A stretch of 64,000 nucleotides of DNA, taken from Pseudofrankia inefficax (lineage in GTDB: Bacteria > Actinomycetota > Actinomycetes > Frankiales > Frankiaceae). The stretch covers positions 868,001 through 932,000 of the forward strand of contig NC_014666.1 in the NCBI RefSeq assembly GCF_000166135.1, given 5' to 3'. This document shows, piece by piece, positions 9,689 through 53,026 of the stretch (within the stretch, counting starts at the first letter, position 1; each line of letters opens with the position of its first letter). Under the pieces are notes generated by a model. It saw only the letters and a program-made list of their open reading frames with translations, had not been told where the DNA came from and did not search any database. The translations under genes were made by a program, and so were the position numbers.

Positions 9689-9761
9689 GATCGCCGTTTC
9701 GGCCCTCCCGTGGTCACAAAACCGCTGTGGTTACGACCACGCGAGGGCCAAAACAGCGATC
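9689..9761. repeat. 73-bp palindromic element, copy 1
   Basis: The element starts GATCGCCGTTTCGGCCCTC and ends GAGGGCCAAAACAGCGATC. The two 27-base arms match at 24 positions around a 19-base loop. It lies between xseB and the DUF4245 gene, which converge. Three more elements of identical length are at 15973, 29800 and 52954. Confidence 0.85.
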
Positions 9762-9814
9762 TTGCCCGCCTCGGGCCGTGGCCGGCCCTGTCGACGCGGC
9801 GACAGTTGCAGTCG

Positions 9815-10519
9815 TCAGGACGTGGCGGCCTGGACGGGGCGCAGTGAGGCGGCGAGGGCTTCGAGGTCGGCCCGGTCGGCGCCACCGGCACCGGCACCGT
9901 CGTCGACGATGATCGTGGCCGCCCCGACGACGCGGGTGAGGGCCAGGTGCCCGTCGTTGTCCGGGCGCAGTTCCCAGGGCTGGCCGCCCAGCGTCGTCGT
10001 CCCGGTCACCGGCCGGTTGCCGAGTACCTGTTGCACGGCGTTCGGGTCGTTCGTGACCTCGTACCGGGCGAAGGTCTGGTCGTTCTTGCGGTCGATGACG
10101 TAGCCGATCGTCAGCATGGCCTGGTGCGCCTGGCCCGCGACCGAACCGGGCACCTGCATCCGCAGGGAGGTCGGCTTCCAGAGGTTCTGGCCGAGACCGG
10201 TCGGCGCGAGCACCGGATAGGGCGCCTGCCGGGCGAACGACTGGACGGAGGTGGTCGCGTCGGAGACCACCTTGACCTGCTGCCCGTTGCCCCTCGGCAT
10301 CACGAAGAGGAAGAACAGGAGCACACCAGCCATCACCACGGCAAGCGAGAGCACCATGTCCCGGACGGTCTCCTGACCACGCGCACGTGCCACACCCCCA
10401 TCATCCCGGTCACGCCGCCGCGAGGCGGACCGGGGAGCGTGGCGCCCGCCACGCACCGAACGCGGACGCAACCATTCGGGGTCCTTCGGCGTCTGAAGCG
10501 GAGCGGGGGTGACCGTCAC
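9815..10519 (-). CDS. DUF4245 family membrane-anchored protein
   Basis: The 234-residue product has a basic, Arg-rich N-terminus, one transmembrane helix (about residues 57-77, MVLSLAVVMAGVLLFFLFVM) and an extracytoplasmic domain of about 150 residues. The QETVRDMVLSL entry into the membrane segment and the GYVIDRKNDQTFARYEVTN core are typical of DUF4245, an actinobacterial family without known function that is often beside glpX and xseAB, as here. The start is uncertain: GTG 10519 gives the long N-terminus, but GTG 10393 would give a shorter and more typical one. A 9-bp perfect hairpin covers the 10519 start. Confidence 0.8.
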   Translation of the reverse strand: MTVTPAPLQTPKDPEWLRPRSVRGGRHAPRSASRRRDRDDGGVARARGQETVRDMVLSLAVVMAGVLLFFLFVMPRGNGQQVKVVSDATTSVQSFARQAPYPVLAPTGLGQNLWKPTSLRMQVPGSVAGQAHQAMLTIGYVIDRKNDQTFARYEVTNDPNAVQQVLGNRPVTGTTTLGGQPWELRPDNDGHLALTRVVGAATIIVDDGAGAGGADRADLEALAASLRPVQAATS

Positions 10520-10537
10520 GCGGAGGGGGCGTGACGG
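10513..10537. repeat. Hairpin over the DUF4245 gene start
   Basis: CCGTCACGC pairs perfectly with GCGTGACGG around a seven-base loop and includes the GTG at 10517-10519. It could be an operator, an RNA hairpin affecting initiation, or a sign that the real start is further in. Confidence 0.4.
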
Positions 10538-10645
10538 CCACCCCCGCCCCGTGGCTCCCGCCCGGACCCCGTCAAAGACGGGATGGTTCCCGTCAAGGAC
10601 ATTGGGCGGCCATCACAAGTGTGGGCCGGGAACGGGCCGGACCAC

Positions 10646-10651
10646 TACGCT
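10646..10651 (+). promoter_or_regulatory. -10 box for glpX
   Basis: TACGCT lies six bases before GTG 10658 with no Shine-Dalgarno. It argues against an in-frame start at 10583. Confidence 0.55.
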
Positions 10652-10657
10652 TCTGCC

Positions 10658-11683
10658 GTGGCACATGAGAGCGGGGCCGTCCCCGAACCGCTTGCCGTCC
10701 AAGGCCAGGCGCCGGACCGCAACCTGGCGCTCGAACTGGTCCGGGTCACCGAGGCCGCCGCGCTCGCTGCCGCTCGCTGGGTGGGCCGTGGCGACAAGAA
10801 CGGGGCGGATGGTGCCGCCGTCGACGCGATGCGCCGTCTGGTCGGCACCGTCTCGATGCGTGGCGTCGTCGTCATCGGGGAGGGCGAGAAGGACGAAGCC
10901 CCGATGCTGTTCAACGGCGAGGAGGTCGGCTCGGGCGAGGGTCCCGAGTGCGACGTCGCCGTCGACCCGGTCGACGGGACCACGCTGACGTCCAAGGGCA
11001 TGAACAACGCCGTCTCGGTGATGGCCGTCAGCGAGCGCGGCACGATGTACGACGCGAGCGTCTGCTTCTACATGGACAAGCTCGTCACCGGCCCCGAAGC
11101 GGCGTCCGTCGTGGACATCACGGCCTCGGTCGAGGACAACGTCCGCGCGGTCGCCAAGGCCAAGGGCATCCTCCCGCGCGACGTCACCGTCGTCGTCCTC
11201 GACCGCCCGCGCCACGCCGACCTGGTCGACGAGATCCGCGCCACCGGCGCCCGCGTCAAGCTGATCTCCGACGGAGACGTCGCCGGCGCCGTCATGGCGG
11301 CCTCCGACGACACCGGCGTCGATCTCCTGCTCGGCGTCGGGGGCACCCCGGAAGGCATCATCACGGCCTGCGCCGTGACCTGCCTGGGCGGTGTCATCCA
11401 GGGCAGGCTGTGGCCGACCGACGACGCCGAGCGGGCGAAGGTCACCGCCGCCGGCCTCGACGTGAACCGGGTGCTGTCCACCCGGGACCTGGTCAACAGC
11501 GACAACGTCTTCTTCGTCGCCACGGGCATCACCGACGGCGAGCTGCTCGCGGGCGTCCGCTACCGCCCCGGCGGCGCCAGCACGTCCTCGCTGGTCATGC
11601 GTTCCCGCAGCGGAACCATCCGCCGGGTCGACAGCCAGCATCAGCTCACGAAGCTGCAGGCCTACTCGACCGTCCCGTTTTAG
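10658..11683 (+). CDS. glpX: Fructose-1,6-bisphosphatase class II
   Basis: This is the gluconeogenic enzyme hydrolysing fructose-1,6-bisphosphate to fructose-6-phosphate, with divalent metal. Signatures include [14 protein letters not shown], the metal-binding [25 protein letters not shown] and [15 protein letters not shown] 10658 gives 341 residues, close to other actinobacterial GlpX proteins; the frame stays open upstream to 10583 but the extra residues are not conserved in character. In actinobacteria GlpX is usually the only FBPase, so it is probably essential for growth on gluconeogenic carbon. The gene diverges from the DUF4245 gene and converges with the GT2 gene. Confidence 0.93.
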
Positions 11684-11709
11684 GAAACGGCTCGTTCCAG
11701 GACGGCGGG

Positions 11710-11757
11710 CCCGAGCGAGCGCACCGGCTCCAGCCGGAGCGCGGTGCGTCGCTCGGG
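11710..11757. terminator. Bidirectional terminator-like hairpin between glpX and GT2
   Basis: CCCGAGCGAGCGCACC pairs with GGTGCGTCGCTCGGG with a single bulge, and a smaller GGCTCC/GGAGC stem sits inside. The gap between these convergent genes is only 100 bp and this structure fills half of it. Confidence 0.55.
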
Positions 11758-11783
11758 ACTGACCACCTGCGGGGTCGCCGCGG

Positions 11784-12605
11784 TCAGGCTGGGCGCCGGT
11801 ACGACTCCTCGACCGGTGCCGCCTTCTCGGCGAGCTTGCGGCGCAGCTGAGCTCGCCCGTACGCCGCTTCCAGCAGCACGCTTCGGGACAGCGGACGGAA
11901 CGCCTCGACGAAAATGGTCCGTAGGACGCGCATGCCATCCGAGAACGCATTGAGGTTCGTGACGCCCATGAGGCGCGGGTGCTCGTAGCTCGGGACCTCG
12001 ACGATAGTCAGCCCGCCGCGCGCCGCCCGGATGTTGATGAGGGTCTCGACCTCGAAGCCGTCGCCCCACTGCGGTTCCTGGCCCTTCTCGCCGGGGCGCA
12101 GGTCCAGCACCGGCAGGCAGTACGACCAGAACGCGTTGTAGCCGTAGCAGAGATCCGTGAACCGGTGCCGCAGCAGGATGTTGACGAGGCCACTCAGCCC
12201 GTGGTTGCCGCGGGCCCGTAGCCGGGTGATATCGCTGCTGCCGCCACCCTTGATGAAGCGGGAGCCCTTGGCGAAGTCCGCGCCGTCGACGAGCACCTGG
12301 ACGAAGTCCTTGATCTCGCCGGGATCCGCGGAACCGTCGGCGTCGAGCATGACGATGATGTCGCCCGTCGCGGCGGCGAACCCGGCCGCCAACGCGTTTC
12401 CCTTGCCCTTCCTGGTCTGATGCACAACGACGCAGTCCGGACGCAGGGCGCGCGCGACCTCCTCGGTGCCGTCGGTGGAGCGGCCGTCGACCAGGACGAT
12501 CTCCGCGTCCCGCGGCAGGATGCGGAAAATGTGTGGCACGTTTCGAGCCTCGTTCAGCGTCGGAATGACGATGCTGATCGCCGGCACTGAGCCTGTCGCG
12601 GTCAA
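11784..12605 (-). CDS. Family 2 glycosyltransferase
   Basis: The product has a GT-A fold like dolichyl/polyprenyl-phosphate sugar transferases. Motifs are IVIPTLNEARN at the N-terminus, EIVLVDGRSTDGT, the nucleotide-sugar/metal site MLDADGSADPGEI and KGSRFIKGGGSSDITR. It probably transfers a hexose to a lipid or glycan acceptor; the acceptor is not evident and no transmembrane helices are seen. The TTG at 12605 is chosen because GGAAGGA lies five bases upstream and the catalytic domain begins directly after. The frame is open to a GTG at 12728, but the 41 residues this would add are low in similarity to GT2 proteins. Confidence 0.85.
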   Translation of the reverse strand: MTATGSVPAISIVIPTLNEARNVPHIFRILPRDAEIVLVDGRSTDGTEEVARALRPDCVVVHQTRKGKGNALAAGFAAATGDIIVMLDADGSADPGEIKDFVQVLVDGADFAKGSRFIKGGGSSDITRLRARGNHGLSGLVNILLRHRFTDLCYGYNAFWSYCLPVLDLRPGEKGQEPQWGDGFEVETLINIRAARGGLTIVEVPSYEHPRLMGVTNLNAFSDGMRVLRTIFVEAFRPLSRSVLLEAAYGRAQLRRKLAEKAAPVEESYRRPA

Positions 12606-13370
12606 GTTCCTTCCCCCCTGGAATTTCGCGCGCGACGCCTCTGTCGGGCGAGCCTCATACGTACCGGCCCTGCCCCCGGAAGTCGGAGTTATCTGGTCCT
12701 CTCGGCCGACGGTCCCACGATCACTCACGCCTGAAGCCTGGGTGACTGTGCGACGTAGCCGTATGCCGGAACGAGGTGGCAGCCGTCCGACGTTCTGGTG
12801 ACAATTCTGGCCCGCACCGGCCCCCGCCTCCGGTGCTTCTCATGCTCGCTATTTCCGTGCTGTCGTTTCTGCGTTGTCCGGCCTGTGATGCGAGGCCTGT
12901 GTTGTCAGGCCTGACCGCCATCGCGCAGTAACGGTAGCATCCGCCCGCGGTGGCTCATCCGCCGCTGTGAGGGGTGCGATACGGGCCTCGACCCGTCGGT
13001 GCCGGTTCATTTCGGAGCGCGGTCGGCCGAACGCGGGTCGCGACGGTTGTCGGAGCAACCAGCTATCGGCCATGCTCGGAGAAGTGGCCGAAGGTGCAGG
13101 TGGCGGCGGTGCCCGAGCAGCGATGCCGGCTCCGGTTCGCGCAGGACGGCCGGGGTTCGCGCAAGGCGGCCGGGCCTCTCGGCGCCATAGCCGTGAGGCG
13201 GGGCGGGGCGCACGTCAGCCGGCTTGCTTCTCGACAGGAACCTGCTCGCGCGGACCTGGTCGGGCGATGGGCCCGGCCTGTCCGGGGCGCCGCCGCATGC
13301 CCGGCTGGCGACATTTCTCGCGGTCCATGTGCCGGGCACGGCGCTTCCGCCCACGCGCCCGGACGCGTGG
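12606..13370. other. Long intergenic region, no convincing gene
   Basis: This 765-bp stretch upstream of the GT2 gene contains overlapping short frames on both strands, but none has a family motif, a credible ribosome site or consistent codon bias. It is less GC-rich than the flanking genes. A minus-strand segment near 13080-13110 faintly recalls the small Cys/His protein at 13371-13529 but ends in a stop. Confidence 0.5.
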
Positions 13371-13529
13371 TTATGGGGTATTTCGCCGGAAACGCGAAAA
13401 TTTGCCACACTCGCACAATCCGCAATCGGTGCCCGCGCGATAGTGCTGGTGCGCCTGGAAAATATGGCCGCAGGTACAGGTACGCAACCAGGCAGCCAGC
13501 CCACTGCGCTTCCCGGACCACAGGCACAT
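13371..13529 (-). CDS. Small Cys/His-rich, probably zinc-binding protein
   Basis: The 52-residue product has the pattern TCTCGHIFQAHQHYR followed by AGTDCGLCECGKF: five cysteines and three histidines in a CxCGHxxxxHxHYRxGTDCxxCxC arrangement. From memory, actinobacteria encode small proteins with this kind of motif, function unknown. The ligand spacing suggests one zinc site. ATG 13529 gives 52 residues and ATG 13562 would give 63; neither has a good ribosome site. Codon choice is more A/T-rich than in neighbouring genes, which may mean recent acquisition or weak expression. It stands alone between the GT2 and DUF6542 genes. Confidence 0.55.
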   Translation of the reverse strand: MCLWSGKRSGLAAWLRTCTCGHIFQAHQHYRAGTDCGLCECGKFSRFRRNTP

Positions 13530-13760
13530 AACACGTTGATAACACGGCGCGTGGCCGCGCATCGCCAGGATCCGTCGCTCGGACGCGTCGGCCGCACCGC
13601 TGTGCCGGTCTGGTGGTCAAGCGACGCCAGGTTGCTGAACGCCCTCGTTACGGCGCTCGCGCCGCCCGTTCTGGCCTGCCCGCCCGTTCCGGCCTCGCCG
13701 CCCCTGCCGGGCTGGCCGGCGGCGCGGGTGCTTCCCCCACGCCGCACGGCGGTCGGTCCG

Positions 13761-14333
13761 TCAGCGAGGCGTGAAGTCGTCGCGGTCGCGGCGGGTGCGG
13801 CTGGCCAGGGCGCGGGCGCGTTCCCGCCGGGCGACCGTCGCCCGCCGGGCGCGGACGAGGGCGACGAGGATGACCAGAAGTTCGGCGATCAGCAGGCTCG
13901 GAGCCCGCAGGATCAGCTCGGACCCGATGTCGATGGCCTCGGTCCGCAGTCCGCCGCCGCTGCCGGACGCCGGGTGCAGGAAGCCAACGGCGACAGTGAT
14001 CACCGCGTAGATCAGCGGCGGCATGATCGCCACTCCGACCAGGTCATCGACGTGGGTACGCAACGCGCTGGCCACGCAGGCGAGCACGAACAGCACACCG
14101 AAGATCCAGCTCAGGTTGCCGAACACGGCGACGTCCGCGGCCGCGCCCACCGCACTGATGATCAGCACGATCAGCGACGCGCCGAAGGCGGTCAGCCCAC
14201 GACGGTTCTGGCTGACGACCGTCGTGGGTTGCACGGTGGGACGCCGTCGGCCGACGGAGGCTCGGTCGGTTGACCCGCGCGGACGCTCGGCGCGACCGCG
14301 CGAGCCCGCGGGTTCCCGGTCGGGGAGGCTCAC
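13761..14333 (-). CDS. DUF6542-type integral membrane protein
   Basis: The 190-residue product has a charged, disordered N-terminus of about 45 residues and four hydrophobic segments (about 47-66, 70-88, 100-118 and 138-160). It ends in an Arg-rich tail. The order GLTAFGASLIVLI, FGNLSWIFGVLFVLACV, VDDLVGVAIMPPLIYAV fits the DUF6542 family, which in actinobacteria lies near ychF and ispH as here. No enzymatic motif is seen. GTG 14333 is preceded by TACGTT at -7, suggesting leaderless translation. Function is unknown; the family assignment is from pattern recall. Confidence 0.7.
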   Translation of the reverse strand: MSLPDREPAGSRGRAERPRGSTDRASVGRRRPTVQPTTVVSQNRRGLTAFGASLIVLIISAVGAAADVAVFGNLSWIFGVLFVLACVASALRTHVDDLVGVAIMPPLIYAVITVAVGFLHPASGSGGGLRTEAIDIGSELILRAPSLLIAELLVILVALVRARRATVARRERARALASRTRRDRDDFTPR

Positions 14334-14339
14334 GGGGGC

Positions 14340-14345
14340 AACGTA
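14340..14345 (-). promoter_or_regulatory. -10 box for the DUF6542 gene
   Basis: On the minus strand this reads TACGTT, six bases before GTG 14333. Confidence 0.45.
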
Positions 14346-14425
14346 CCGCTCCGGCTTTAAGAAAACGTCAGAGCGATACGTCGCGGCCGTACCATCCGCC
14401 GATCTTGCCGGCGATCCGTGTGACT

Positions 14426-15856
14426 TCAGGCACTCCGTGAAGTGCTGTCGGCACCAACGGTGTCCGCGCCGCCCGGAACCGTCGCGGCGGGGACGGAGGA
14501 TACGAGCCCCACCATGGCGGGCTCCGAGGCTCGGGCCGCCGCCGGGGAGCCGGTCGCATCCAGGACGATGCCGACCGCCGGCCCTACCTCCGCGTCGAGC
14601 CTTAGCTCGGGAGCGGTGACCGGGCGGACACCGAGCTCGACCGGCCGTGGGCTGGCGAGCTCGTCCTCGACGAACTCCATCGCGGCGAGCCGGCGTGCCT
14701 GCACCAGCACCCGGCTCTCCAGCGAGCCGACGGTCGCGTTGTAGCTCTCGACCGCCCGCCCGAGCGACGTGCCCAGCCGATCGACGTGCTCGCCGAGCGT
14801 CCCGAGCCGGTTGTAGAGCTCCTTGCCGAGGTCGTAGACCTCCTTTGCCCGGGTGGTCAGCGCCTCCTGAGTCCAGGCGTAGGCGACCGTGCGCAGCAGC
14901 GCGATCAGGGTGGTCGGGGTGGCGATCACGACATTGCGCCCGGCCGCGTATTCGAGCAGGCCAGCGTCATGGTCGAGCGCGGGCGCGAGGAAGGCCTCGG
15001 CCGGGATGAACAGCACCACGAACTCGGGCGAGTCGAGCCGGCGCCAGTAGGCCTTCGAGCTCAACTGGTCGACATGGGTGCGGACGTGGCGGGCATGCGC
15101 GGCGATCCGCTCGGCACGTACGGCCTCGTCGGTGCTCTCGGCCGCCTCGAGGAACGCGGACAGCGGGACCTTCGAGTCCACGACGATGCTGCGCCCGCCG
15201 ACCAGGTGAACGACCAGGTCCGGCCGCTGGGTCGCCTCGGCGCCGTCGCCGGTCATCGTCAGCTGCTCGGTGAAGTCACAGCGGTTCAGCATGCCGGCGA
15301 CCTCGACGACGCGGCGCAGCTGCAGCTCGCCCCAGGCGCCCCGGGCCTGCGGCTTGCGCAGCGCGGTCACGAGCTGCGCCGTCTGGGTGCGCAGCCCGTC
15401 CGACGCCTCGCGCACCGAGCGAACCTGCTCGACGAGCGTCGCGTAGGCCTCGGTCCGGGCCGTCTCCAGCTCGCGCAGCCGGTCCTCCATCTTGGTCAGC
15501 GTGTCCCGCAGCGGCGCGACCAGGCTCTCGACGGCGGCGCGGCGAGCCTCCAGATCACCCTGGGCGCGGGTTCCCGCCTCGTCGAAGCGGGCCGAGGCGA
15601 GCTGAAGGAACTGTCGGCTCGCCCCTTCGAGCGCCCGCGCCGACAACGCCTCGAAGGTCTCGGTGAGCCGCCGCTGGCTGTGCTCGACGAGCTCGACCCG
15701 CTCCGTGGCCGAACGGCGCTCGTACTCCAGCGCCGTCCGCATGCCGGCCACGTCCGCCGTCGCCTGCTGGCGTGCCGCCTGCCGCCCCACGAGATAGCCA
15801 CCCGCGGCCCCGAGCGCGAGGCAGAGCAAGGCGAGCAGCACCCCGGTGGCGTCCAT
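14426..15856 (-). CDS. rmuC: RmuC family DNA recombination protein
   Basis: RmuC proteins limit recombination between inverted repeats and carry a predicted PD-(D/E)XK-like nuclease core. The 476-residue product starts with a membrane-spanning helix (LLALLCLALGAAGGYLVGRQ), then a long coiled coil (about 30-185). The RmuC core follows with GAWGELQLRRVVEVAGM, DLVVHLVGGRSIVVDSKVPL and EFVVLFIPAEAFLAPAL, where the Asp...Asp-Ser-Lys residues may form the active site. A poorly conserved Ala/Pro tail ends the protein. ATG 15856 is preferred over a TTG at 15868. It is followed on the same strand by the DUF6542 gene and flanked upstream by a repeat-dense spacer. Confidence 0.9.
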   Translation of the reverse strand: MDATGVLLALLCLALGAAGGYLVGRQAARQQATADVAGMRTALEYERRSATERVELVEHSQRRLTETFEALSARALEGASRQFLQLASARFDEAGTRAQGDLEARRAAVESLVAPLRDTLTKMEDRLRELETARTEAYATLVEQVRSVREASDGLRTQTAQLVTALRKPQARGAWGELQLRRVVEVAGMLNRCDFTEQLTMTGDGAEATQRPDLVVHLVGGRSIVVDSKVPLSAFLEAAESTDEAVRAERIAAHARHVRTHVDQLSSKAYWRRLDSPEFVVLFIPAEAFLAPALDHDAGLLEYAAGRNVVIATPTTLIALLRTVAYAWTQEALTTRAKEVYDLGKELYNRLGTLGEHVDRLGTSLGRAVESYNATVGSLESRVLVQARRLAAMEFVEDELASPRPVELGVRPVTAPELRLDAEVGPAVGIVLDATGSPAAARASEPAMVGLVSSVPAATVPGGADTVGADSTSRSA

Positions 15857-15893
15857 GCCCACAGGCAATCACGCACCACCGACAAAACTCCCC

Positions 15894-15942
15894 GCAGCCC
15901 GCAGCCCGCAGCCCGCAGCCCGCAGCCCGCAGCCCGCAGCCC
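15894..15942. repeat. Seven tandem copies of a 7-bp unit
   Basis: GCAGCCC is repeated seven times without error, starting 37 bases upstream of the rmuC start. The heptamer makes the region prone to slippage, so copy number may vary between strains. Confidence 0.9.
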
Positions 15943-15972
15943 GCGCACGCTGCCTGCTGCCGCCAGGCAGTT

Positions 15973-16045
15973 GATCGCCGTTTGAGCCCTCCCATGGTCG
16001 TGATCCGCGCGTTCCTACAACCACGACGGGGCCCAAACGGCGATC
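15973..16045. repeat. 73-bp palindromic element, copy 2
   Basis: The outer arms GATCGCCGTTTGAGCCCT and GGGCCCAAACGGCGATC pair with few mismatches. It matches the length of the copies at 9689, 29800 and 52954 exactly and lies in the divergent region between rmuC and ychF. Confidence 0.85.
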
Positions 16046-16162
16046 ACCGCCCCCAGCTCCTCGACGCACGCCGAGGCCAACCCAGATCCCACGTGCCGAT
16101 GTCAGCCCCCGGCCCGGCACCCCAGCCCGGTGAGCCGGCGCGGTAACCCGGCCACGATCACC

Positions 16163-16416
16163 GCGGCCGTCCAGGCCGCAATCGCGACGCACCCACCACG
16201 CCCAGGTCGGGAAGGCGCGGCCCGCCTGTGCGCCCCGACCTCGTTCTGGCCGGGGGCAGCGCTCAGCGTGTGCCGTTGACGGCGGCCGTCCAGGCCGCAA
16301 TCGCGGCGCACCCACCACGCCCAGCTCATCAAGCCGCGACCCCGCCTGTGCGCCCCGACCCCGCTCCAGGCAGAGGGCGCGCTCAGCGCGCCCAGATCAC
16401 GCGGCCGTCCAGGCAC
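16163..16416. repeat. 119-bp direct tandem repeat, two units plus partial third
   Basis: Units begin with GCGGCCGTCCAGG at 16163, 16282 and 16401, exactly 119 bases apart. The first two share a long head beginning CGGCCGTCCAGGCCGCAATC, a central CCCGCCTGTGCGCCCCGAC block and a GCGCTCAGCG block near the end, with more divergence in between. The third is cut short after 16 bases and runs directly into the ychF promoter. Confidence 0.85.
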
Positions 16417-16425
16417 GCGTGATCG

Positions 16426-16431
16426 TAGGAT
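16426..16431 (+). promoter_or_regulatory. -10 box for ychF
   Basis: TAGGAT lies six bases before ATG 16438, ten bases after the last truncated 119-bp repeat unit. Confidence 0.55.
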
Positions 16432-16437
16432 TGGCCT

Positions 16438-17514
16438 ATGGGTCTGTCGATCGGCATCGTCGGGCTGCCCAACGTCGGCAAGTCGACGCTTTTCAACGCG
16501 TTGACCCGTAACGACGTGGTGGCCGCCAACTATCCCTTCGCGACGATCGAGCCCAATGTCGGCGTCGTCGGCGTGCCGGACTCGCGTCTCGCGGAGCTGG
16601 CCAAGCTGTATGGCGACCCACGGGTGGTTCCGGCGACGGTGAGCTTCGTCGACATCGCGGGCCTGGTGCGCGGCGCGGCCGAGGGGCAGGGCCTGGGCAA
16701 CAAGTTCCTCGCCAACATCCGCGAGTCGGACGCGGTGTGCCAGGTGGTCCGGGTGTTCTCGGACCCCGACGTCGTGCACGTCGAGGGCCGGGTGGACCCG
16801 GCCGATGACATCGCCACGATCAACACCGAGCTGATCCTCGCCGACCTGCAGACCGTCGACAACCGGCTGCCCCGCCTGGCCAAGGAGGCCAGGATGGACA
16901 AGTCCAAGCAGGCCTTGCTGACCGCCGTCGAGGCCGCGCGAGCCGTGCTGGACGCGGGGCGGCCCCTGTCGTCAGAGCCGAAGATCGACCTGGTGGCGCT
17001 GCGTGAGCTGTTCCTGCTGACGGCCAAGCCCTTCCTGTACGTCTTCAACGTCGATGAGGACGTCCTGTCCGACGACGCGCGGTGCAAGGAGCTCACCGGG
17101 CTCGTCGCCCCGGCCGACGCGGTCGTGCTGTGCGCGAAGGTCGAGGCCGAGCTGGCGGAGCTGCCCGAGGAGGACGCGGCGGAGCTGCTCGCCTCGCTCG
17201 GCCAGAGCGAGAGCGGCCTCGCCGCGTTGGCCAGGATCGGTTTCCACACCCTTGGGCTGCAGACCTATCTCACCGCGGGCCCGAAGGAGGCGCGGGCCTG
17301 GACCATCCGGAAGGGTGCCACCGCGCCCGAGGCCGCCGGGGTGATCCACACCGATTTCCAGCGCGGCTTCATCAAGGCCGAGATCGTCTCGTTCGACGAC
17401 CTGATGGCCGCCGGCTCCATGGTGTCGGCCCGCGCCGCTGGCAAGGTCCGGATGGAAGGCAAGGACTACGTCATGGCCGATGGTGACGTCGTCGACTTCC
17501 GTTTCAACGTCTGA
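16438..17514 (+). CDS. ychF: Redox-regulated ribosome-associated ATPase/GTPase YchF (Obg family)
   Basis: YchF/OLA1 is an Obg-family P-loop NTPase that prefers ATP, binds ribosomes and affects stress responses. The 358-residue length is typical. Motifs seen are the Walker A GLPNVGKSTLFN, switch region NYPFATIEPNVG, Walker B DIAGLVRGAAEGQGLGN, a coiled-coil insertion (about 125-200), the NVDEDVL specificity region and the C-terminal TGS domain (DFQRGFIKAEIVSFDDL). ATG 16438 appears to be leaderless. The association with ispH, xseA and a DUF6542 gene is conserved in mycobacteria. Confidence 0.95.
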   Translation: MGLSIGIVGLPNVGKSTLFNALTRNDVVAANYPFATIEPNVGVVGVPDSRLAELAKLYGDPRVVPATVSFVDIAGLVRGAAEGQGLGNKFLANIRESDAVCQVVRVFSDPDVVHVEGRVDPADDIATINTELILADLQTVDNRLPRLAKEARMDKSKQALLTAVEAARAVLDAGRPLSSEPKIDLVALRELFLLTAKPFLYVFNVDEDVLSDDARCKELTGLVAPADAVVLCAKVEAELAELPEEDAAELLASLGQSESGLAALARIGFHTLGLQTYLTAGPKEARAWTIRKGATAPEAAGVIHTDFQRGFIKAEIVSFDDLMAAGSMVSARAAGKVRMEGKDYVMADGDVVDFRFNV

Positions 17515-18714: not shown

Positions 18715-18745
18715 AACTCCGGGGCCCGGCGTCGCGGCACGGGAG

Positions 18746-29708: not shown

Positions 29709-29799
29709 TCACCCGGCCCAGGGTCAGGAGTACTGGACCTGGGCCGGCCGGGGTCTGGCGCCGGATCTGGCCAGGCTGGCCTCGTCGCGAGACCAGCAA

Positions 29800-29872
29800 G
29801 ATCGCTGTTTCCGCCCTCGTATGGCTGTAACCGCAGCGGTTTTGTGACCGCGCGAGGGCCGAAACGGCGATC
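29800..29872. repeat. 73-bp palindromic element, copy 3 (opposite orientation to copy 1)
   Basis: It begins GATCGCTGTTTCCGCCCTC and ends GAGGGCCGAAACGGCGATC. Its reverse complement matches copy 1 (9689) far better than its own strand does, including the loop GGTCACAAAACCGCTG, so the element has a defined polarity and inserts either way round. Confidence 0.85.
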
Positions 29873-30010
29873 AAGTCGGCGGGCGGACCTCGCCGGGCCC
29901 GGCACTAGGTAGCAATCGCTTGTCTTGGGCAGCGGTCGCCTGGGCCAGCGGTTGTCTTGAGCGCCGTGTCAATTCTGGGCGGTCGCCTCTCCGCGGCCGC
30001 CGTTTCCCCT

Positions 30011-38126: not shown

Positions 38127-38128
38127 GC

Positions 38129-44800: not shown

Positions 44801-44806
44801 CGGCCG

Positions 44807-45268: not shown

Positions 45269-45294
45269 GTCGAATAGCTGGGCGAGCGGCGCCG

Positions 45295-45897: not shown

Positions 45898-46376
45898 GGG
45901 GCTAGCTCGAACCTTCTGGCCGCGCGAGGCTCGACCTCGGGGCGCCGGGCCAGGCTGCCCGAGGTGTGGTGACCGGTGCGAGCGCGGGCGTGACGGACCG
46001 GCGGCGGCGCTGGGCCGCGCGCGGGGGCATCGTCATCGACCCGAGCAGGCACACTCGATCAGGGTACGTCCGGCGTGGCCGGGCATGCCGGCCGACGCGG
46101 GCGGGCGGCGTCACAGTCCGGGCCCCGTCGCACCGCCCGACGCGAGAACCGCTGCCCGGTAGGGCGGCCGGCGCGGCCACGGTCTCGACGGCGGCCCGCG
46201 TGGCCGCCACGGCGGGCTATGGTGGAGTTCCGAGACGCCGTCGTCGGCGTGCCGCCCGGCACTACTCCCGGGCACCACCACCCGGCAGCGTCCTGATGTC
46301 CGTTCGATCGGGTCTCCAGTTCGATCGACAACCGCCGCTACCGCCGGCCGGCGGCAGCCAGACGGCCGAGGTTTCG
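45898..46376. other. marR-mrp divergent intergenic region
   Basis: The 479 bases have no convincing gene. The mrp frame is open back to 45966, but the codons are Arg-rich and atypical. ATG 46296 in this stretch is an alternative mrp start. Confidence 0.4.
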
Positions 46377-47585
46377 TTGTCAGCTCCCACTTCCTCATCC
46401 GACGCCGGGGTCCTTCCTGGTTCGGCACAGCCAACCCAGGAAGCCGTTCAGGCGGCGCTGGCCACCGTGCTCGACCCCGAGATCGGCAAGCCGATCACCG
46501 AGCTGGACATGGTCGAGGCCATCCAGGTCCGTGGTGACGGGTCGGTCGACGTCGTGGTTCTGCTCACGGTGTCCGGCTGCCCGATGCGGGACGAGATCAC
46601 CAACCGGGTCGACCGCGCCGTCCGCGGTGTCGCGGGGGTCACCGACGTCCGCGTCGTGCTGTCCGTGATGAGCGACGCGCAGCGGTCGGGCCTGCACGAG
46701 AAGCTGCGCGGCGGCACCCCGACGCGGGTGATCCCGTTCGCGCAGCCCGGTTCGCTCACGCGGGTCTACGGCGTGGCCAGCGGCAAGGGCGGCGTCGGCA
46801 AGTCGTCGGTCACCGTCAACGTGGCCGTCGCGATGGCCCAGTCGGGCCTGAAGGTCGGCGTCCTGGACGCGGACATCTACGGCCACTCGGTGCCCCGGAT
46901 GTTCGGCATCGACCGGGGCCCGACGCAGGTCGACAAGATGATCATGCCGCCGCAGGCGCACGGCGTGAAGGTGATCTCCACGGGGATGTTCACCCGAGGC
47001 AACGCCCCGGTGACCTGGCGCGGGCCGATGCTGCACCGCGCGCTGGAGCAGTTCCTCTCCGACGTGTTCTGGGGCGATCTCGACGTCCTGCTGCTCGACC
47101 TGCCGCCCGGCACGGGCGACATCGCCATCTCCCTGGCGCAGCTGGTCCCGTCGTCGGAGCTGCTGGTCGTCACGACCCCGCAGGTCGCGGCCACGGAGGT
47201 CGCCGAGCGGGCCGGCACGATCGCCGCGCAGACCCGACAGAACGTGGTCGGCGTCCTCGAGAACATGGCCTACCTGCCCTGCCCGCACTGTGACGAGCGG
47301 ATCGACCTGTTCGGGGCCGGCGGCGGCGCCGCGGTGGCCGAGCGGCTGACCACGGTGCTCGGCCACGACGTCCCGCTGCTGGCGCAGATCCCGCTGGACG
47401 TGCGGCTGCGCGAGGGCGGCGACGCCGGCGTGCCGCTGGTCGTGTCCGACCCGGACTGCGAGGCCAGCAAGCAGCTGCGGACGGTGGCCGACCGGCTCGG
47501 CCACCGCTCCCGTGGGCTTGCCGGCCGGTCGCTCAACCTGTCGCCGTCCCGGGGGCTGGCCGCGACGCCGCCCCACGCGCACTAG
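46377..47585 (+). CDS. mrp: Mrp/NBP35-type iron-sulfur carrier ATPase
   Basis: Mrp-like P-loop ATPases carry or help assemble Fe-S clusters in the cytosol. A MIP18-like N-terminal domain (VLDPEIGKPITELDMVEAIQ, SGCPMRDEI) is followed by the deviant Walker A SGKGGVGKSSVTVNVA, VLDADIYGHSVPRMFG, DLPPGTGDIAISLAQ and the cluster motif CPHC. TTG 46377 has a GAGG site and gives 402 residues, close to mycobacterial Mrp; ATG 46296 would add 27. A strong terminator follows. Confidence 0.9.
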   Translation: MSAPTSSSDAGVLPGSAQPTQEAVQAALATVLDPEIGKPITELDMVEAIQVRGDGSVDVVVLLTVSGCPMRDEITNRVDRAVRGVAGVTDVRVVLSVMSDAQRSGLHEKLRGGTPTRVIPFAQPGSLTRVYGVASGKGGVGKSSVTVNVAVAMAQSGLKVGVLDADIYGHSVPRMFGIDRGPTQVDKMIMPPQAHGVKVISTGMFTRGNAPVTWRGPMLHRALEQFLSDVFWGDLDVLLLDLPPGTGDIAISLAQLVPSSELLVVTTPQVAATEVAERAGTIAAQTRQNVVGVLENMAYLPCPHCDERIDLFGAGGGAAVAERLTTVLGHDVPLLAQIPLDVRLREGGDAGVPLVVSDPDCEASKQLRTVADRLGHRSRGLAGRSLNLSPSRGLAATPPHAH

Positions 47586-47603
47586 GACGGCTCGCCGGGT
47601 CCG

Positions 47604-47646
47604 AAGGGCCGTCGGCACGGGGTAGCGCCTCGTGCCGACGGCCCTT
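47604..47646 (+). terminator. Strong intrinsic-type hairpin after mrp
   Basis: AAGGGCCGTCGGCACG pairs perfectly over 16 bases with CGTGCCGACGGCCCTT around an 11-base loop. It starts 18 bases after the mrp stop and is the most stable terminator-like structure seen in the window. Confidence 0.8.
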
Positions 47647-47846
47647 GCGCGTGTGGCTGCCCGCTGTCCGGCGAGGTTGCGCCGGGTCGGGGCCGATACG
47701 TGACAGTTCGAGAGTCGCGCGGTAGTGATGTTGCCCGCGAACGCCTGCGCGTGGCCCGCGCCGCCGCCTACGCTCCCCCCTTACGAACGGTCGGTGGCCC
47801 GTGGCCCGGCCGGCTCGTCCCGGAACGTCTGGTCAGGGGAGGGCGC

Positions 47847-48353
47847 ATGCAGTTCGGCCGGTACTACGAGGAGTTCGAGGTCGGTGCCGTCTACAAGCAC
47901 TGGCCAGGCAAGACGGTCACGGAGTACGACGACCATCTGTTCTGCCTGCTCACGATGAACCACCACCCGCTGCACCTCGACGCGCATTACGCCGAGGAGA
48001 CGACCCAGTTCAAGCGGAACGTCGTCGTCGGCAACTACGTCTACTCGCTGCTGCTGGGCATGTCGGTGGCCGATGTCTCCGGCAAGGCGATCGCGAACCT
48101 CGAGGTCGAGTCGCTGCGTCACGTCAAGCCGGTCTTCCACGGCGACACGATCTACGGCGAGTCCACCGTCCTGGACAAGGTCGAGTCGAAGAGCAAGGAC
48201 GACCGGGGCATCGTCACCGTCGAGACCCGGGGCTACAACCAGGACGGCGTCGTCGTCTGCGTCTACCGGCGCAAGGTGATGGTCCCGAAGCGGTCCTACG
48301 GCGAGGCGCGCGGCGGCGAGCAGCCGGGCCGTCCGGTCCCGGCCGAGGCCTGA
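47847..48353 (+). CDS. MaoC-family (R)-specific hydratase
   Basis: The 168-residue hot-dog-fold protein matches MaoC dehydratases acting on enoyl- or mesaconyl-type CoA esters. YDDHLFCLLTMNHHPLHLDA provides the catalytic Asp/His-like pair, and FHGDTIYGESTVL follows. ATG 47847 has a GGGGAGG site, so the longer open frame upstream is not used. Mesaconyl-CoA hydratases of the ethylmalonyl-CoA route look like this, and a CoA-ester lyase and acyl-CoA dehydrogenase lie 6-8 kb downstream; the link is only suggestive. Confidence 0.8.
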   Translation: MQFGRYYEEFEVGAVYKHWPGKTVTEYDDHLFCLLTMNHHPLHLDAHYAEETTQFKRNVVVGNYVYSLLLGMSVADVSGKAIANLEVESLRHVKPVFHGDTIYGESTVLDKVESKSKDDRGIVTVETRGYNQDGVVVCVYRRKVMVPKRSYGEARGGEQPGRPVPAEA

Positions 48354-48507
48354 GCCTCCCGGCTCCCGAACCGTCCTCCCGAATAGCGCGGTCCCAAACC
48401 GTGCTCGCCGGTTTGTCGAGGCTGAGCGGTGGCAACACCTTGAGTGCGGGACGTAACCCACTGTAGGTGGTCCCGGGATACTTGAGGAGAAATTCGGGAG
48501 GAGCCAG

Positions 48508-49155
48508 GTGACAAGCGCACCCGCCTGTCCCCGCTGCCTCGGCCAGCTAAGGCCGCCTGACGTGCGGAGCGACCAGTGGCGGTGCGACGTGCACGCCGCC
48601 GTGGCTCCCTGGCGTGAGGCGACGACGGCACCGGAGGAGGCTCTGCGCCAGCTCGCCGGCTCGGCCGCCGTGCCCGTCTGGGTGCCGACGCCGATGCCGG
48701 TGCACTGGTACGTCGGCGGCGTCGGCTGGGCCGGAGACGACCGGACCGGTGCCCGGGCGACCGCCCTGGCCACGGCCGGGCCGTCGCCGGTCGGCGGCCC
48801 CGCCGACATGCTGCTGGTGGCCGAGTCGCCGGGCACCGGCCTCGGCGCCCGGTTCGCCGGGATCGCCGGGCCCGACCCCAACCAGCTCGACACACTGCCG
48901 GAGGCGAAGGTCGAGGCGGCCGGGCATCCGACCGCGCTGTGGCCGGTGCGGTCACCGCCGGACCGGGCCGCCTTCGTCGGCGAGGCCGGCGGCGTCTGGC
49001 TGTGGGTGCTGCTCTGGCCCGCGGACGCCGCGCTGCTGCTGCTGGAGCACCTCGTGCTGGCGGACCTGGGTGACCAACAGACGCTGACCGACCGCCTGAC
49101 GTTCGGCGCGCCCACCGATCGGCTGGGGACGAGAATGGCCTCCTCCGCGGCCTGA
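48508..49155 (+). CDS. DUF6758-type protein with N-terminal zinc-ribbon-like motif
   Basis: The 215-residue product begins with CPRCLGQLRPPDVRSDQWRC and a following DVH, a Cys2-Cys zinc-ribbon-like element. The body is Ala/Gly/Pro-rich with no catalytic motif; VGGVGWAGDD and DMLLVAESPGTGLGA are family-like segments, and a hydrophobic WLWVLLWPADAALLLLEHL stretch lies near 167-185. Family membership is recalled from Streptomyces homologues. GTG 48508 has GGAGGAG upstream. Function unknown. Confidence 0.6.
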   Translation: MTSAPACPRCLGQLRPPDVRSDQWRCDVHAAVAPWREATTAPEEALRQLAGSAAVPVWVPTPMPVHWYVGGVGWAGDDRTGARATALATAGPSPVGGPADMLLVAESPGTGLGARFAGIAGPDPNQLDTLPEAKVEAAGHPTALWPVRSPPDRAAFVGEAGGVWLWVLLWPADAALLLLEHLVLADLGDQQTLTDRLTFGAPTDRLGTRMASSAA

Positions 49156-49272
49156 GCCCTCCGGACGGGCCGCGCGCCCATAGGGCGTTCTCGTCCGGCC
49201 CCGTCTGCTCGTAGGCTCTGGCACACCCGGGCGCCGCCCGAGGCGAACCCGAGCGAGAGGCGATCGGCCGCC

Positions 49273-50217
49273 ATGACCGAAACCGCGGACCCCGCGCCGG
49301 CGGTCCCGGCCGCACCAGAGGACGCGCCGGTCCAGCTCGACCGGCTCCGGGTGATCGTGAACCCGAGCGCCGGCCACGGCCGCGCCGGGAAGGTGCTGCC
49401 CGCCGTCGAGGCGGCGCTGCGCGGCTGGGCCACCGAGGTCGAGGTGTCCCCGACCAGGGACATCGCGCACGCCGACGAGCTGGCCGCTGCCGCTGCCGCC
49501 GCCGGGCAGGTCGCGGTCGCGCTTGGCGGGGACGGCCTGGTCGGCCGGGTCGCGGGTGCCACCGCGGCTGCCGGGGGCGTCCTGGCCGTGCTGCCCGGCG
49601 GCCGCGGCAACGACTTCGCCCGCGGCCTCGGCATCGACCGTGACCCGGCCGCCGCCGCGACGGCGCTCGCCACGGCGGTGGAGCGTCGCGTCGACCTGCC
49701 GGAGGCGGGCGGCACCCCGTTCATCGGCATCGCGAGCCTCGGCTTCGACTCCGAGGTCAACGCGCTGGCGAACCGGACACGCTGGCTGCGCGGGCAGAGC
49801 GTGTACACGTACGCGGTGCTGCGCTCGATGGTGTCGTGGCGCCCGGTGAGGTTCACCGTCAGCGTCGACGGCGGCGAGCCCGAGCAGATCGTCGGCTGGA
49901 CGGTGGGCGCCGCGAACGCCGCCTACTACGGCGGTGGCATGCGGATGGCCCCGGGTGCGGACATCGCCGACGGCAAACTAGAGGTGATCTTCATCCACCG
50001 GTGCGGCCGGCTCACCCTGCTCGCCCTGTTCCCCCGGGTCTTCTCGGGCCGGCACGTCGACACGAAGCACGTGACCGTGCGCCGGGCCACCCGGCTGACC
50101 GTGGACGCCGACCGGCCGTTCCAGGTCTACGCGGACGGCGACCCGGTCGCGGACCTCCCGGCCGAGATCCTCGTCCGTCCCGGCGCCCTACGCCTCCTCG
50201 CCCCGTCCGTCAGCTAG
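49273..50217 (+). CDS. Diacylglycerol kinase-family lipid kinase
   Basis: This 314-residue DAGK_cat protein probably phosphorylates a membrane lipid. It has VIVNPSAGHGRAGKV, the nucleotide-binding GGDG motif in VALGGDGLVGRVAGA, and LPGGRGNDFARGLGI. The C-terminal beta-sandwich has YYGGGMRMAPGADIADGKLE. The second motif is GLVGR rather than the more common GTVNE, but the key glycines are kept. ATG 49273 has a nearby GAGAGG. The lipid substrate (diacylglycerol, sphingoid or polyprenol) is undecided. Confidence 0.85.
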   Translation: MTETADPAPAVPAAPEDAPVQLDRLRVIVNPSAGHGRAGKVLPAVEAALRGWATEVEVSPTRDIAHADELAAAAAAAGQVAVALGGDGLVGRVAGATAAAGGVLAVLPGGRGNDFARGLGIDRDPAAAATALATAVERRVDLPEAGGTPFIGIASLGFDSEVNALANRTRWLRGQSVYTYAVLRSMVSWRPVRFTVSVDGGEPEQIVGWTVGAANAAYYGGGMRMAPGADIADGKLEVIFIHRCGRLTLLALFPRVFSGRHVDTKHVTVRRATRLTVDADRPFQVYADGDPVADLPAEILVRPGALRLLAPSVS

Positions 50218-50253
50218 CCCCGCGTCCCGGTGGAGTCCGCCGGAGGCTTGCGC

Positions 50254-50892
50254 TCAGGTCAGGCGGGCCTCCCGGCGGGTGGGGTCGCGCAGGTCCAGCT
50301 CGTCGGCCAGCCAGCGCTCCCGCAGGGCGCCGGCGCCGTGGACCCGTTTGAACGCGGACTCGTTCGCCGTCATCGGGAACAGCGGCAGGAAGCGGACCGG
50401 CGCCGGCTCCCCGGCCGAGGCCCCGGGGCCGTCCGGGCTGGCGAGGCTGCCCGACTCCGCGGGGTCGGTGGGGTCGGTGGTCGGCAGGTCCGGTATCAGG
50501 CCGCCCGGCTCGCCGACCAGCACCGCGTGGAAGCGGGCGTCGTCCCAGAGCGGTTCGCCGAGGTCGAGACCGGAGCCGGCGACGACCGGCACGCCCTCGA
50601 TCGCGGGGATCGCGGCCAGCACCGCGAGCCGGCGCACCACGCTGTCGCGCGGTGTTCGCAGGGAGAGGACCAGCTCGGCGCGCGGGCCGGCCGGGTCGCG
50701 CACGGCCACCGTCGGGTCGCTCATCGGCTCCGCGGACATGCCGACCGTCGCGTACCGGAAGAAGCCGTCCGGCTGAGGGCCGAACCGCAGCACGTCGATG
50801 GGGTCGGCGCCCAGGAACGTGACGCCGGCGCGGCCGGTGATCGGCCCGAACGTGGCCACCAGGTGCCGTTCGACCGCGGCGCGTAGGTCCAC
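50254..50892 (-). CDS. Suppressor-of-fused (SUFU) domain protein
   Basis: The 212-residue product aligns with bacterial SUFU-domain proteins: DVLRFGPQPDGFFRYATVGMS, ELVLSLRTPRDSVVRRLAVLA and FLPLFPMTANESAFKRVHGA are characteristic blocks in order. Bacterial members are often linked to immunity or stress loci but have no known activity. It is divergent from the TerD-like gene. GTG 50892 is preceded by a -10 box at 50900. Confidence 0.8.
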   Translation of the reverse strand: MDLRAAVERHLVATFGPITGRAGVTFLGADPIDVLRFGPQPDGFFRYATVGMSAEPMSDPTVAVRDPAGPRAELVLSLRTPRDSVVRRLAVLAAIPAIEGVPVVAGSGLDLGEPLWDDARFHAVLVGEPGGLIPDLPTTDPTDPAESGSLASPDGPGASAGEPAPVRFLPLFPMTANESAFKRVHGAGALRERWLADELDLRDPTRREARLT

Positions 50893-51201
50893 GCGCCTGA
50901 TCCTACGGTCGGGCGCCGGGCACCCGATCCGTCAGCCGCCGGGCGTCCCCGGTGTGGACGCGGACCTGCCGGGTACTGCGGTGTACTGGCTGGGGAGCAA
51001 CGTCTGGCCAGCAGGCAAAGCCGGTTGCGCGGTCCGGCGGCGAACGGTCTGTCTGGCGACATTCGTTGAGGCCGGGTGGGGTTGTGCGGCACGCTGAGGC
51101 GCGGTTGGGCGGTGGGCGCTGTCGCGGCGTGGGCGGCATCTGGAACGATCGAGGCCGCTGGTCGCGTTGGCCGGGGGAGTACAGGCGAGACGGAGGCAAC
51201 C
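50893..51201. other. SUFU-terD divergent intergenic region
   Basis: The 309 bases contain the SUFU promoter near one end and the GGAGG site of the TerD-like gene near the other. I see no repeat or small gene. Confidence 0.4.
50900..50905 (-). promoter_or_regulatory. -10 box for SUFU-domain gene
   Basis: On the minus strand this is TAGGAT, seven bases before GTG 50892. Confidence 0.5.
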
Positions 51202-52884
51202 ATGGCTGGGGTGCTGAGCAAGGGGGCGAACGCGCCGCTGCCGACGCCTGACGTGCGGGTGGAGATCTCCTCGTCGACGCCGCTGGACATCGCCGCGCTG
51301 CTCGTCACCGCGTCCGGGCGGGTCCGCTCGGACGCCGACTTCGTCTTCTACAACCAGCCCAGCGGCCCCGGGGTACGGCTGCGACCGCCGTCGACGCTGG
51401 AATTCTCGCTCCAGGCGGTGCCGCCGGACATCGACAAGGTGGTCGTGACGGGCAGCCTGGATGGCTCGGGGCCGCCGACCTTCGCCGCGGTGAACGGGCT
51501 GAGCGTCGCGGTGCTCGCCAGCCAGGGCGGCGCCGAGATCGCCCGCTTCGACCCGTCCGACCTGCGGACTGAGACCGCCCTCATCATGGTCGAGCTCTAC
51601 CGTCGCGCGGGTAGCTGGAAGGTGCGCGCGGTCGGCCAGGGCTATGCGTCCGGGCTCGCGGGTATCGCCACCGACTTCGGCATCAGCGTCGACAGCGACG
51701 CCCCCGCGGCCGCGCCGCAGGCTCCGCCCGCGCCGCCGACCCCAGCGCCCCCGCCGCCGCAGCCTCTGACGCGCCCGAGCGCGCCGGCGGCGCCGCCCGC
51801 CCCGGCAGGTGGGCCGGGACGGTGGGGCGAGGGCGACTACGAGGCTCCGACCCAGCTGGTCCGGCCGGACCAGCCGCCGACTCCCGCCTCCCCGTCGTCG
51901 CGTGGCGCGGCCACCGGGCCGCCGCCCGGCGGACCGGCGCAGGGCCAGCCGCCTGCGTCGCCGCAGTGGGGTCCCCCGCCGACCGCCCAGCCGCAGTACG
52001 GGCAGCAGCCGCCGCGGGCGCCGCAGCCGCCGCCGGGGGGTCAGCCGCAGCCGCAGGGCCCGCCGCAGTGGGGCCCGCCGCCCGGCCAGCCGGGCCAGTG
52101 GGGCGCACCGCCCCCGCCCGGGGCGCAGCCGGGCCAGTGGGCCGGCCAGTCGGGGCAGCAGTGGGCGCCTCCCGCCGGGGCGCCGGTGAACCCGGCCTGG
52201 GGCGCGCCGCAGCCCGGGCAGCCGGGGGGACCGCCCGCCGGCGGTCAGTGGGGCCCGCCGCCCGGTCAGCCGCCCATGGACAAGGCCTGGGGACCGCCGG
52301 CCGCCGGGGTCAACCTCGACAAGGGGCGCGTGTCGCTGCGCAAGGGCGAGGCTGTCTCGCTGGTCAAGACCGGCGCTCCGCCGCTGACCCGGGTCCGGAT
52401 GGCGCTTGGCTGGGATCCGGCCGCGCAGGGCAAGGACATCGACCTGGACGCGTCCTGCATCCTCTACGACGCGCACGGCAAGGACGTCGACCGCGTCTGG
52501 TTCATGTCCAAGAAGGGCGCGAAGGGCGCCGTGCGGCACTCCGGTGACAACCTCACCGGGGCGGGCGAGGGCGACGACGAGACGATCTTCGTCGACCTCG
52601 GGGCGCTGCCGCCGACGGTGATCGCGCTGGTCTTCACCGTGAACAGCTTCGCGGGCCAGCCGTTCACCGACGTCCGGCGGGCCTACTGCCGGCTGATCGA
52701 CGACCTGACCAGCCAGGAGCTGGTCCGGTTCGACCTGTCGGACTCCAAGCGGTCCACCGGCCTGGTGATGTGCAAGGTCCAGCGGGTGCCGAACACGCCG
52801 GTGTGGTCGATGACCGCGATCGGCGAGTTCCACGACGGCAAGACGGTCCGCGCCATGATCGAACCGGCCCGCCGGTATCTCTGA
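51202..52884 (+). CDS. TerD-family protein with two TerD domains and long Pro/Gly/Gln linker
   Basis: TerD domains bind calcium and occur in tellurite-resistance and stress systems. The 560-residue protein has an N-terminal TerD domain (1-170) with RVRSDADFVFYNQPSGPG, a low-complexity linker of about 195 residues (GQWGPPPGQP-like repeats), and a C-terminal TerD domain (about 370-560) with the calcium motif KDIDLDASCILYD and HSGDNLTGAGEGDDETIFVDL. The N-terminal copy has lost part of the acidic calcium loop. ATG 51202 has a GGAGG site. Other ter genes are absent nearby. Confidence 0.85.
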   Translation: MAGVLSKGANAPLPTPDVRVEISSSTPLDIAALLVTASGRVRSDADFVFYNQPSGPGVRLRPPSTLEFSLQAVPPDIDKVVVTGSLDGSGPPTFAAVNGLSVAVLASQGGAEIARFDPSDLRTETALIMVELYRRAGSWKVRAVGQGYASGLAGIATDFGISVDSDAPAAAPQAPPAPPTPAPPPPQPLTRPSAPAAPPAPAGGPGRWGEGDYEAPTQLVRPDQPPTPASPSSRGAATGPPPGGPAQGQPPASPQWGPPPTAQPQYGQQPPRAPQPPPGGQPQPQGPPQWGPPPGQPGQWGAPPPPGAQPGQWAGQSGQQWAPPAGAPVNPAWGAPQPGQPGGPPAGGQWGPPPGQPPMDKAWGPPAAGVNLDKGRVSLRKGEAVSLVKTGAPPLTRVRMALGWDPAAQGKDIDLDASCILYDAHGKDVDRVWFMSKKGAKGAVRHSGDNLTGAGEGDDETIFVDLGALPPTVIALVFTVNSFAGQPFTDVRRAYCRLIDDLTSQELVRFDLSDSKRSTGLVMCKVQRVPNTPVWSMTAIGEFHDGKTVRAMIEPARRYL

Positions 52885-52953
52885 GCCGCCCTTCGACCAC
52901 GCCGCCTCAACGCGGCGGCGCCTCTGATCGCTGGACCCGTCCAGCGGAGGCGT

Positions 52954-53026
52954 GATCGCCGTCTCGGCCCTGGCGTGGTCGCGATGGCGGCCGAGGCACG
53001 ACCGCCCCAGGGCCAAAACGGCGATC
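52954..53026. repeat. 73-bp palindromic element, copy 4
   Basis: It begins GATCGCCGTCTCGGCCCTG and ends CAGGGCCAAAACGGCGATC, with inner GCGTGGTCG and CACGACCGC pairing. It lies between the TerD-like gene and the PHP gene, both on the plus strand. Confidence 0.85.

Follow-up and report, generated by a model that had tools for sequence, protein, structure and literature searches.

Why should a bacterial chromosome carry, between its genes, a set of palindromes that are all exactly 73 bp long? A 64,000-nucleotide stretch of the Pseudofrankia inefficax chromosome (the window; G000:C1:868001-932000 of 8,815,781 bp, where G000 is the window's own or home genome) raises this question: a first-pass annotation had described four such elements there, each beginning GATCGCYGT and ending ACRGCGATC, and had proposed that they are non-autonomous mobile elements or structured binding sites. 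We find that the 73-bp palindromes are the best-preserved middle of a non-coding transposon of about 150 bases that is present in well over 100 copies. The element is probably a miniature inverted-repeat transposable element (MITE) of the IS630 type that inserts in CTAG and is immobile in the home genome, its inner inverted repeat being kept as a DNA-level site. The palindromes of the window, and the parts of the longer unit recognised there, are the following:

Copy 1 core: 9689..9761, + strand, 73 bp
Copy 1 full unit: about 9655-9804, + strand, extrapolated because the outer ends have decayed
Copy 2 core: 15973..16045, - strand, 73 bp
Copy 3 core: 29800..29872, - strand, 73 bp
Copy 3 full-length unit: 29755..29908, - strand, from a profile match (W/29907-29756) and the listing of ends
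Copy 4 core: 52954..53026, - strand, 73 bp, tails not recognised
Right tail ending in CTAG, core missing: 61130..61157, - strand, from alignment to locus L150; the sister genome G033 (Frankia sp. AgB1.9) has a complete core there

All four cores have the position, length and ends first described for them, and the opposite-orientation match of copies 1 and 3 is confirmed. All four also lie between genes (one convergent, one divergent and two tandem contexts), as judged with genes called by script at a coding fraction of 0.79, some genes probably being missed. The inner GGCCCTC/GAGGGCC block that had been ascribed to every copy is not present in exact form in copy 2, which has GAGCCCTCC and GGGGCCC.

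Searching the whole chromosome with the full strict pattern returned 91 copies, and the half-site pattern 132 + 136 matches; the reversed control gave 0 for both patterns, which excludes chance, and the genome-wide search that the first-pass annotation had called for thus yields many further copies. As an element has at most two half-sites, the 268 half-sites correspond to at least 134 elements or remnants. A position matrix applied to 1.264 Mb (the window and 60 stretches of 20 kb around known copies, hence not a random sample) identified 97 paired copies, 91 of 73 bp, three of 74, two of 72 and one of 71. A separate pattern search gave no copy with a length of about 76-86. Half-sites scoring above 9 bits numbered 205 in the real sequence and none in the reversed sequence, and 15 half-sites above 8 bits were left unpaired, roughly nine of which are, by eye, truncated or degenerate copies.

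The annotation had taken 73 bp as the length of the whole element; recurring tails make the unit about twice as long. Since no target duplication was seen at the edge of the core, a longer unit was looked for. The sequences on either side of the core group into families that recur among the copies, and their alignment gives a left tail of ~36 and a right tail of ~45 bases; an iterated profile search recovered a unit of ~151 bp with inverted-repeat ends AGTGCCGCgtCCGgCAAGGTCcGCCCG. Its ends were read from 123 profile matches reaching both ends (66 after removal of the second strand of the same copy): among 204 ends, 53 are CTAG in register and another 50 are CTA shifted by one base, CCAG ranks next in frequency, and the bases beyond are near random. 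At 30-44 bp from the core, 192 ends contain 30 CTAG sites; the frequency of CTAG in the genome predicts about 1, and its frequency in intergenic DNA about 3. Copy 3 illustrates both ends: on the right, the terminal repeat AGTGCCGGGCCCGGCGAGGT is preceded by CT (CTAG at 29905-29908), and on the left the unit reads outward GGCGCCAG, a CTAG with T changed to C. Short, bounded by inverted termini and without a transposase gene, the ~151-bp unit has the build of an IS630-type MITE.

Placement relative to genes follows the same motif. Among 96 of the 97 elements (one at a region edge was left out), a single element overlaps a called gene by >20 bp, so the copies avoid genes. Of 95, 46 are tandem, 37 convergent and 12 divergent, whereas gaps of these three kinds supply 53, 14 and 33% of the intergenic DNA; copy 1, for instance, has a convergent pair of genes around it, with ends at 9649 (+) and 9815 (-). 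The median distance to the nearest stop codon is 45 bp, versus 93 bp under random placement in the same gaps, and for the 90 exact 73-mers the core-to-stop distance has a maximum at 31-33 bp for the left tail (8/55 ends) and at 40-45 bp for the right tail (16/60). Gene ends facing an element carry CTAG in 35/120 cases, as compared to 121/974 genes overall. The end of the element thus coincides in many cases with the TAG stop codon of the adjacent gene. CTAG sites number 61 inside 999,013 bp of genes, 119 at stops and 267 in 264,987 bp of intergenic DNA (this last count including some ends of the elements themselves), which makes CTAG about sixteen times rarer within genes than between them. 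This rarity would cause copies to pile up just behind genes, and CTAG targeting thereby offers, for a genome of 72% GC, a concrete explanation of the intergenic position of a mobile repeat and of its place behind stop codons.

To what extent the core is preserved can be read from 24 elements with usable synteny between the home genome and G033 (per-position differences being taken from those of length 73). Across these orthologous pairs, the arms have an identity of 0.920, the loop of 0.842 and the first 40 bases outside of 0.848; the values are 0.887 for distant intergenic DNA and 0.881 for third codon positions. Gapped positions make up 3/1749 in the core versus 148/1825 in the first 40 bases outside. 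Conserved arm positions that lie outside the search pattern (14, 19, 23-25 and their partners) differ in 11/220 cases versus 255/1677 in the tails, and the free variable positions of the core differ about as much as the tails do (13-27%). The gap counts and the conserved free positions together indicate that the length of the core and certain of its bases are kept after insertion, the advantage of the core over the tails being greatest in its length.

The arms had been described as covarying, and here the larger sample speaks differently. Over 28 arm positions in an alignment of 70 copies, Watson-Crick pairs number 1537 versus 1528+/-10 with shuffled partners, and compensatory changes between the arms are not seen in the home genus; weak pairing signals appear only at pairs 19-55, 20-54 and 21-53, and the covariation score is reached by 9/500 shuffles. 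Judged from these alignments, then, what the home genus conserves is half-site sequence and not base pairing. In the transcribed strand of 43 tandem elements, G.U pairs (79) show no excess over A.C mismatches (83), and there is no T-tract behind the core (13.3% T in the following 12 nt versus 13.75% from the base composition of the window). Half-site sequence kept in this way, with neither G.U excess nor T-tract, points to DNA rather than RNA, and we therefore favour a core that acts as a DNA site.

A candidate source of the transposition machinery lies in sister genomes. Locus L251 of G029 holds a 1.27-kb IS630 element whose 401-aa open frame (NF033545, E=2.7e-49) has DDE_3 and helix-turn-helix domains and which is flanked by CTAGTGCGCTGTCCACGAAGGTTGGCCGGT and CTAGTGCGCTGACCACGAACGTTCACCGGT; similar sequences stand at both IS630 ends of L260 in G030, and an IS630 fragment in G033 begins CTAGTGCCGC. 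With a matrix built on the element's ends, these sister IS630 ends score 7 to 21 bits, where the home sequence reversed as a control gives 22 matches >10 bits, two >14 and none >16. Kinship between the two sets of ends is thus suggestive on sequence grounds, and not close. G030 also holds a 150-bp copy of the element itself (L255).

These observations can be joined in a simple model. An IS630 transposase supplied in trans would recognise the ends AGTGCCGC..CCGGCAAGGT and insert the element into the TA of CTAG; the first base of the element, a G, would restore TAG, so that insertion at a stop codon would leave the gene intact. After insertion the outer ends would decay, and the inner 73-bp inverted repeat would keep its length and its conserved arm positions. 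The core would be retained as a DNA-level site made up of a pair of inverted half-sites, GATCGC.GTTT..GCCCT...TGG, with constant spacing, to which the transposase or a protein of the host would bind. The termini, CTAG, the placement, the copy number, the related IS630 ends and the better preservation of the core in orthologues are observed; transposition itself, the core-binding factor and any benefit to the host are the parts of this model that we infer.

The distribution of the element within the genus bears on its history. A covariance model built from 70 of the 90 exact 73-mers (R1, from alignment A1) matches 8/8 genomes of the genus, with 6 to at least 141 matches per genome counted per strand, and 0/27 other genomes of the family. 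In a collection of 84,980 species, represented by one genome per species and possibly leaving out the window's own genome, the exact pattern occurs in 115 stretches: 111 in Frankia sp. AgB1.9, three in F. nepalensis CN7 and one in Pseudofrankia asymbiotica. Copy 1 is found at the same place in G033 and is absent in G031, G032, G028 and G030, where the junctions are too diverged to read. Of 30 distinct G033 elements with comparable DNA in the home genome, 25 are shared and five absent or unclear by eye, the G033 loci having been chosen for intact cores; at L220, a stretch of ~165 bp with the element is missing from the home genome, and G033 in turn keeps a remnant of the home-genome copy at 1,948,959. 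An approximate empty site comes from L212 of G033, where a full element interrupts a dispersed repeat. The element is lacking from the copies of this repeat in L077 and L198, which resume next to CTAG-type ends. The loci compared are:

Dispersed repeat: L212:5706-6155 (element at 5856-6005) versus L077:11777-12069, L198, L128, L079, L060 and L040

Both genomes carry several copies of the repeat itself (TGCCTGCGCAGACGCCGATCATCC...CTTGATCGAGAACTGCGCAGGGA), which are about 76-80% alike.

Taken with the inverted termini, the CTAG ends, the copy number and the sister IS630 elements, this approximate empty site upholds the view of the first-pass annotation that the element is non-autonomous, mobile and MITE-like. 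A number of observations weigh against the IS630-type MITE. Regarding insertion, the readable differences between the home genome and G033 appear to be deletions or truncations and not insertions; the empty site is a diverged paralogue, hence approximate, and no clean TA duplication is seen in it; and at the edge of the core there is no direct repeat >2 bp. Regarding the ends, end-matrix matches >14 bits lie beside 97 cores (194 ends) in only 28 cases, most outer ends being too decayed, and 13 further matches >14 bits occur away from these cores, a mixture of remnants and, probably, chance matches. The likeness to the sister elements is also limited: the best IS630 ends agree with the element's ends at 19/28 bases (counted by eye), most of the 30 DDE_3 loci of the genus have no match to the end matrix, CTAGTG stands at an end-like place in only 6/30 of them (L246, L251, L256, L260, L267 and L269), and some of these six score 7-12 bits, a range that reversed sequence reaches too. 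In the comparison with G033, the tails (0.848) are less well preserved even than distant intergenic DNA (0.887), and the loci were picked by the exact core pattern, which biases the pattern positions and leaves the other positions and the gap counts usable. Finally, a PF13358 (DDE_3) search of the home genome gave 0 matches and NF033545 only three partial ones below the cut-off. Failure to find a cognate transposase in the home genome lowers the certainty that the element belongs to the IS630-type MITEs, but, since a MITE can outlive its transposase, not the certainty that it functions as they do; as no intact IS630 transposase was found there, the family is probably no longer moving in the home genome.

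Palindromes with the same ends occur in other actinobacteria. Among 118 genomes sampled from the class, R1 finds weak matches besides the genus in G041, G049, G066, G102 and G108, and the weak match in G108 (L330) has no half-sites. A looser end pattern, GATCGCNGTTT...AAACNGCGATC, matches 8/393 sampled genomes of the class, with zero matches in controls: six genomes of the home genus, G041 (family f8, 29 copies) and G066 (family f9, three copies). In G041, 28/29 copies are 73 bp long and share the 11-bp ends GATCGCYGTTT around a different interior, TTTCATGATC; the three copies in G066 are 62 bp long with the same ends. The G041 copies covary at positions 0, -1, 7, 12 and 20 (z 2.3-4.7), with pairing of 586 versus 568+/-6 shuffled over 25 core pairs and of 141 versus 113+/-5 over eight flanking pairs, and some inner positions pair less than shuffled. 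In 20 fetched G041 loci, CTAG was counted ten times at 10-40 bp beyond the core, with <1 expected, and CTAG is also the commonest stop context in that genome. A preference for gene ends is not shown in G041: 9 tandem, 6 divergent and 3 convergent contexts (18/20 loci) are not clearly different from the 66, 29 and 6% of available intergenic sequence. A viral contig, L387 (IMGVR_UViG_3300045996_001133), has one 87-bp palindrome at 344-430 with the same GATCGCTGTTT ends.

Shared ends and length around different interiors suggest, on sequence comparison, that the ends and the length are what is recognised. The puzzle is that both stay constant within an otherwise decayed transposon, even in a second actinobacterial family in which the interior differs. 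It is possible, if rather unlikely, that the 73-bp palindrome is the real unit, a DNA site that binds a protein or forms a cruciform, or else a palindrome that moves by itself, recognised by its 11-bp ends and total length, and that the CTAG-ended MITE is only one vehicle for it. The G041 copies, with their exact length and real covariation, speak for this, as do the same ends at 62 bp in G066 and at 87 bp in the viral contig, and the 73-bp spacing that is kept in the home genus though the loop differs at 17% between orthologues. Yet the CTAG sites close outside the G041 cores fit the same vehicle, and unpaired half-sites >14 bits are almost all, by eye, truncated or degenerate elements; we know of no protein that binds the core. 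More doubtful is the broader idea that fixed-length GATCGCYGTTT...AAACRGCGATC palindromes constitute a DNA element not described before, one that a protein conserved in these families recognises and that MITEs have brought to gene ends, where selection keeps it after insertion.

Two other explanations dispense with an IS630-type MITE altogether. Immobile bidirectional transcription terminators, or stabilisers of mRNA 3' ends, would account for the placement behind genes, the enrichment between convergent genes and the strong hairpins (median -41.9 kcal/mol), but they would be expected to leave traces in RNA that the T content behind the core, the G.U count and an arm pairing equal to the shuffled value in the home genus do not bear out. 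Placement already follows from CTAG targeting, and Rfam at gathering thresholds has no match in the window, which makes this explanation improbable. An RNA element in general was rejected on similar grounds, for the lack of an Rfam match in the window, of a strand bias, of a T-tract and of any overall excess of pairing in the genus. Repetitive extragenic palindromic (REP) or REPIN elements, moved by a REP-associated tyrosine (RAYT, Y1) transposase, are likewise intergenic palindromes of high copy number, and the first-pass annotation had named them and the RAYT search as a check; PF01797 (Y1_Tnp) is absent from the home genome and from 6/7 other genus members, and we regard this origin as very improbable. 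The single Y1 (RAYT-type) transposase among the eight genus genomes is at G034:C610:9267-9632 (L240), and G034 has the fewest R1 matches.

The IS630-type MITE that we prefer has counterparts among known systems. MITEs of the IS630 family, such as RUP in pneumococcus and NEMIS/Correia in Neisseria, are short, non-coding, intergenic units with terminal inverted repeats and a TA-containing target, for whose movement an IS630-type transposase probably acts in trans. The element described here resembles them in each of these respects; it differs in that its inner 73-bp inverted repeat survives longer than the termini, and in that its target is CTAG at stop codons. IS870 of Agrobacterium needs CTAG and thereby gains a stop codon; it shares with the present element the IS630 type, the CTAG target and a TAG serving as stop codon, but it is a full insertion sequence that acquires the stop for its own gene, whereas here the host gene keeps its stop. 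REP/REPIN elements share with it the many intergenic palindromes, and are set apart by the lack of a RAYT in the home genome, the exact length and the IS630-like ends. MITEPsy1 of Pseudomonas syringae, a 100-nt MITE inserting at CTAG or YTAA, is likewise a short MITE with a CTAG target; in the parts of its account consulted, it is classed 'IS5?', with a 4-nt duplication and few copies, and an internal palindrome like the one described here is not mentioned (PMC3189936). Among titles and abstract openings of the Frankia and Pseudofrankia literature on repeats, palindromes and MITEs, none describes the element.

A few further features of these genomes touch on the element. The right tail at 61130..61157 scores <14 bits with the end matrix and is recognised from its alignment. 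Around copy 2, at about 15910-16425, the adjoining matches are just ~70 bp apart in G033 and ~10 bp apart in G031, a gap deduced from matched coordinates and not from a base-by-base alignment. A short tandem run of CAGCCCG lies just before this copy, at 15920-15945 of the window, in a stretch that seems to be missing from G033 and G031. Elsewhere in the home genome, two partial IS630-like matches with identical scores below the cut-off, at G000:C1:7191317-7191703 and 8012518-8012904, fall in 428-aa open frames, and a palindrome with one weaker arm (L380, 2308-2380) lies near the first of them.

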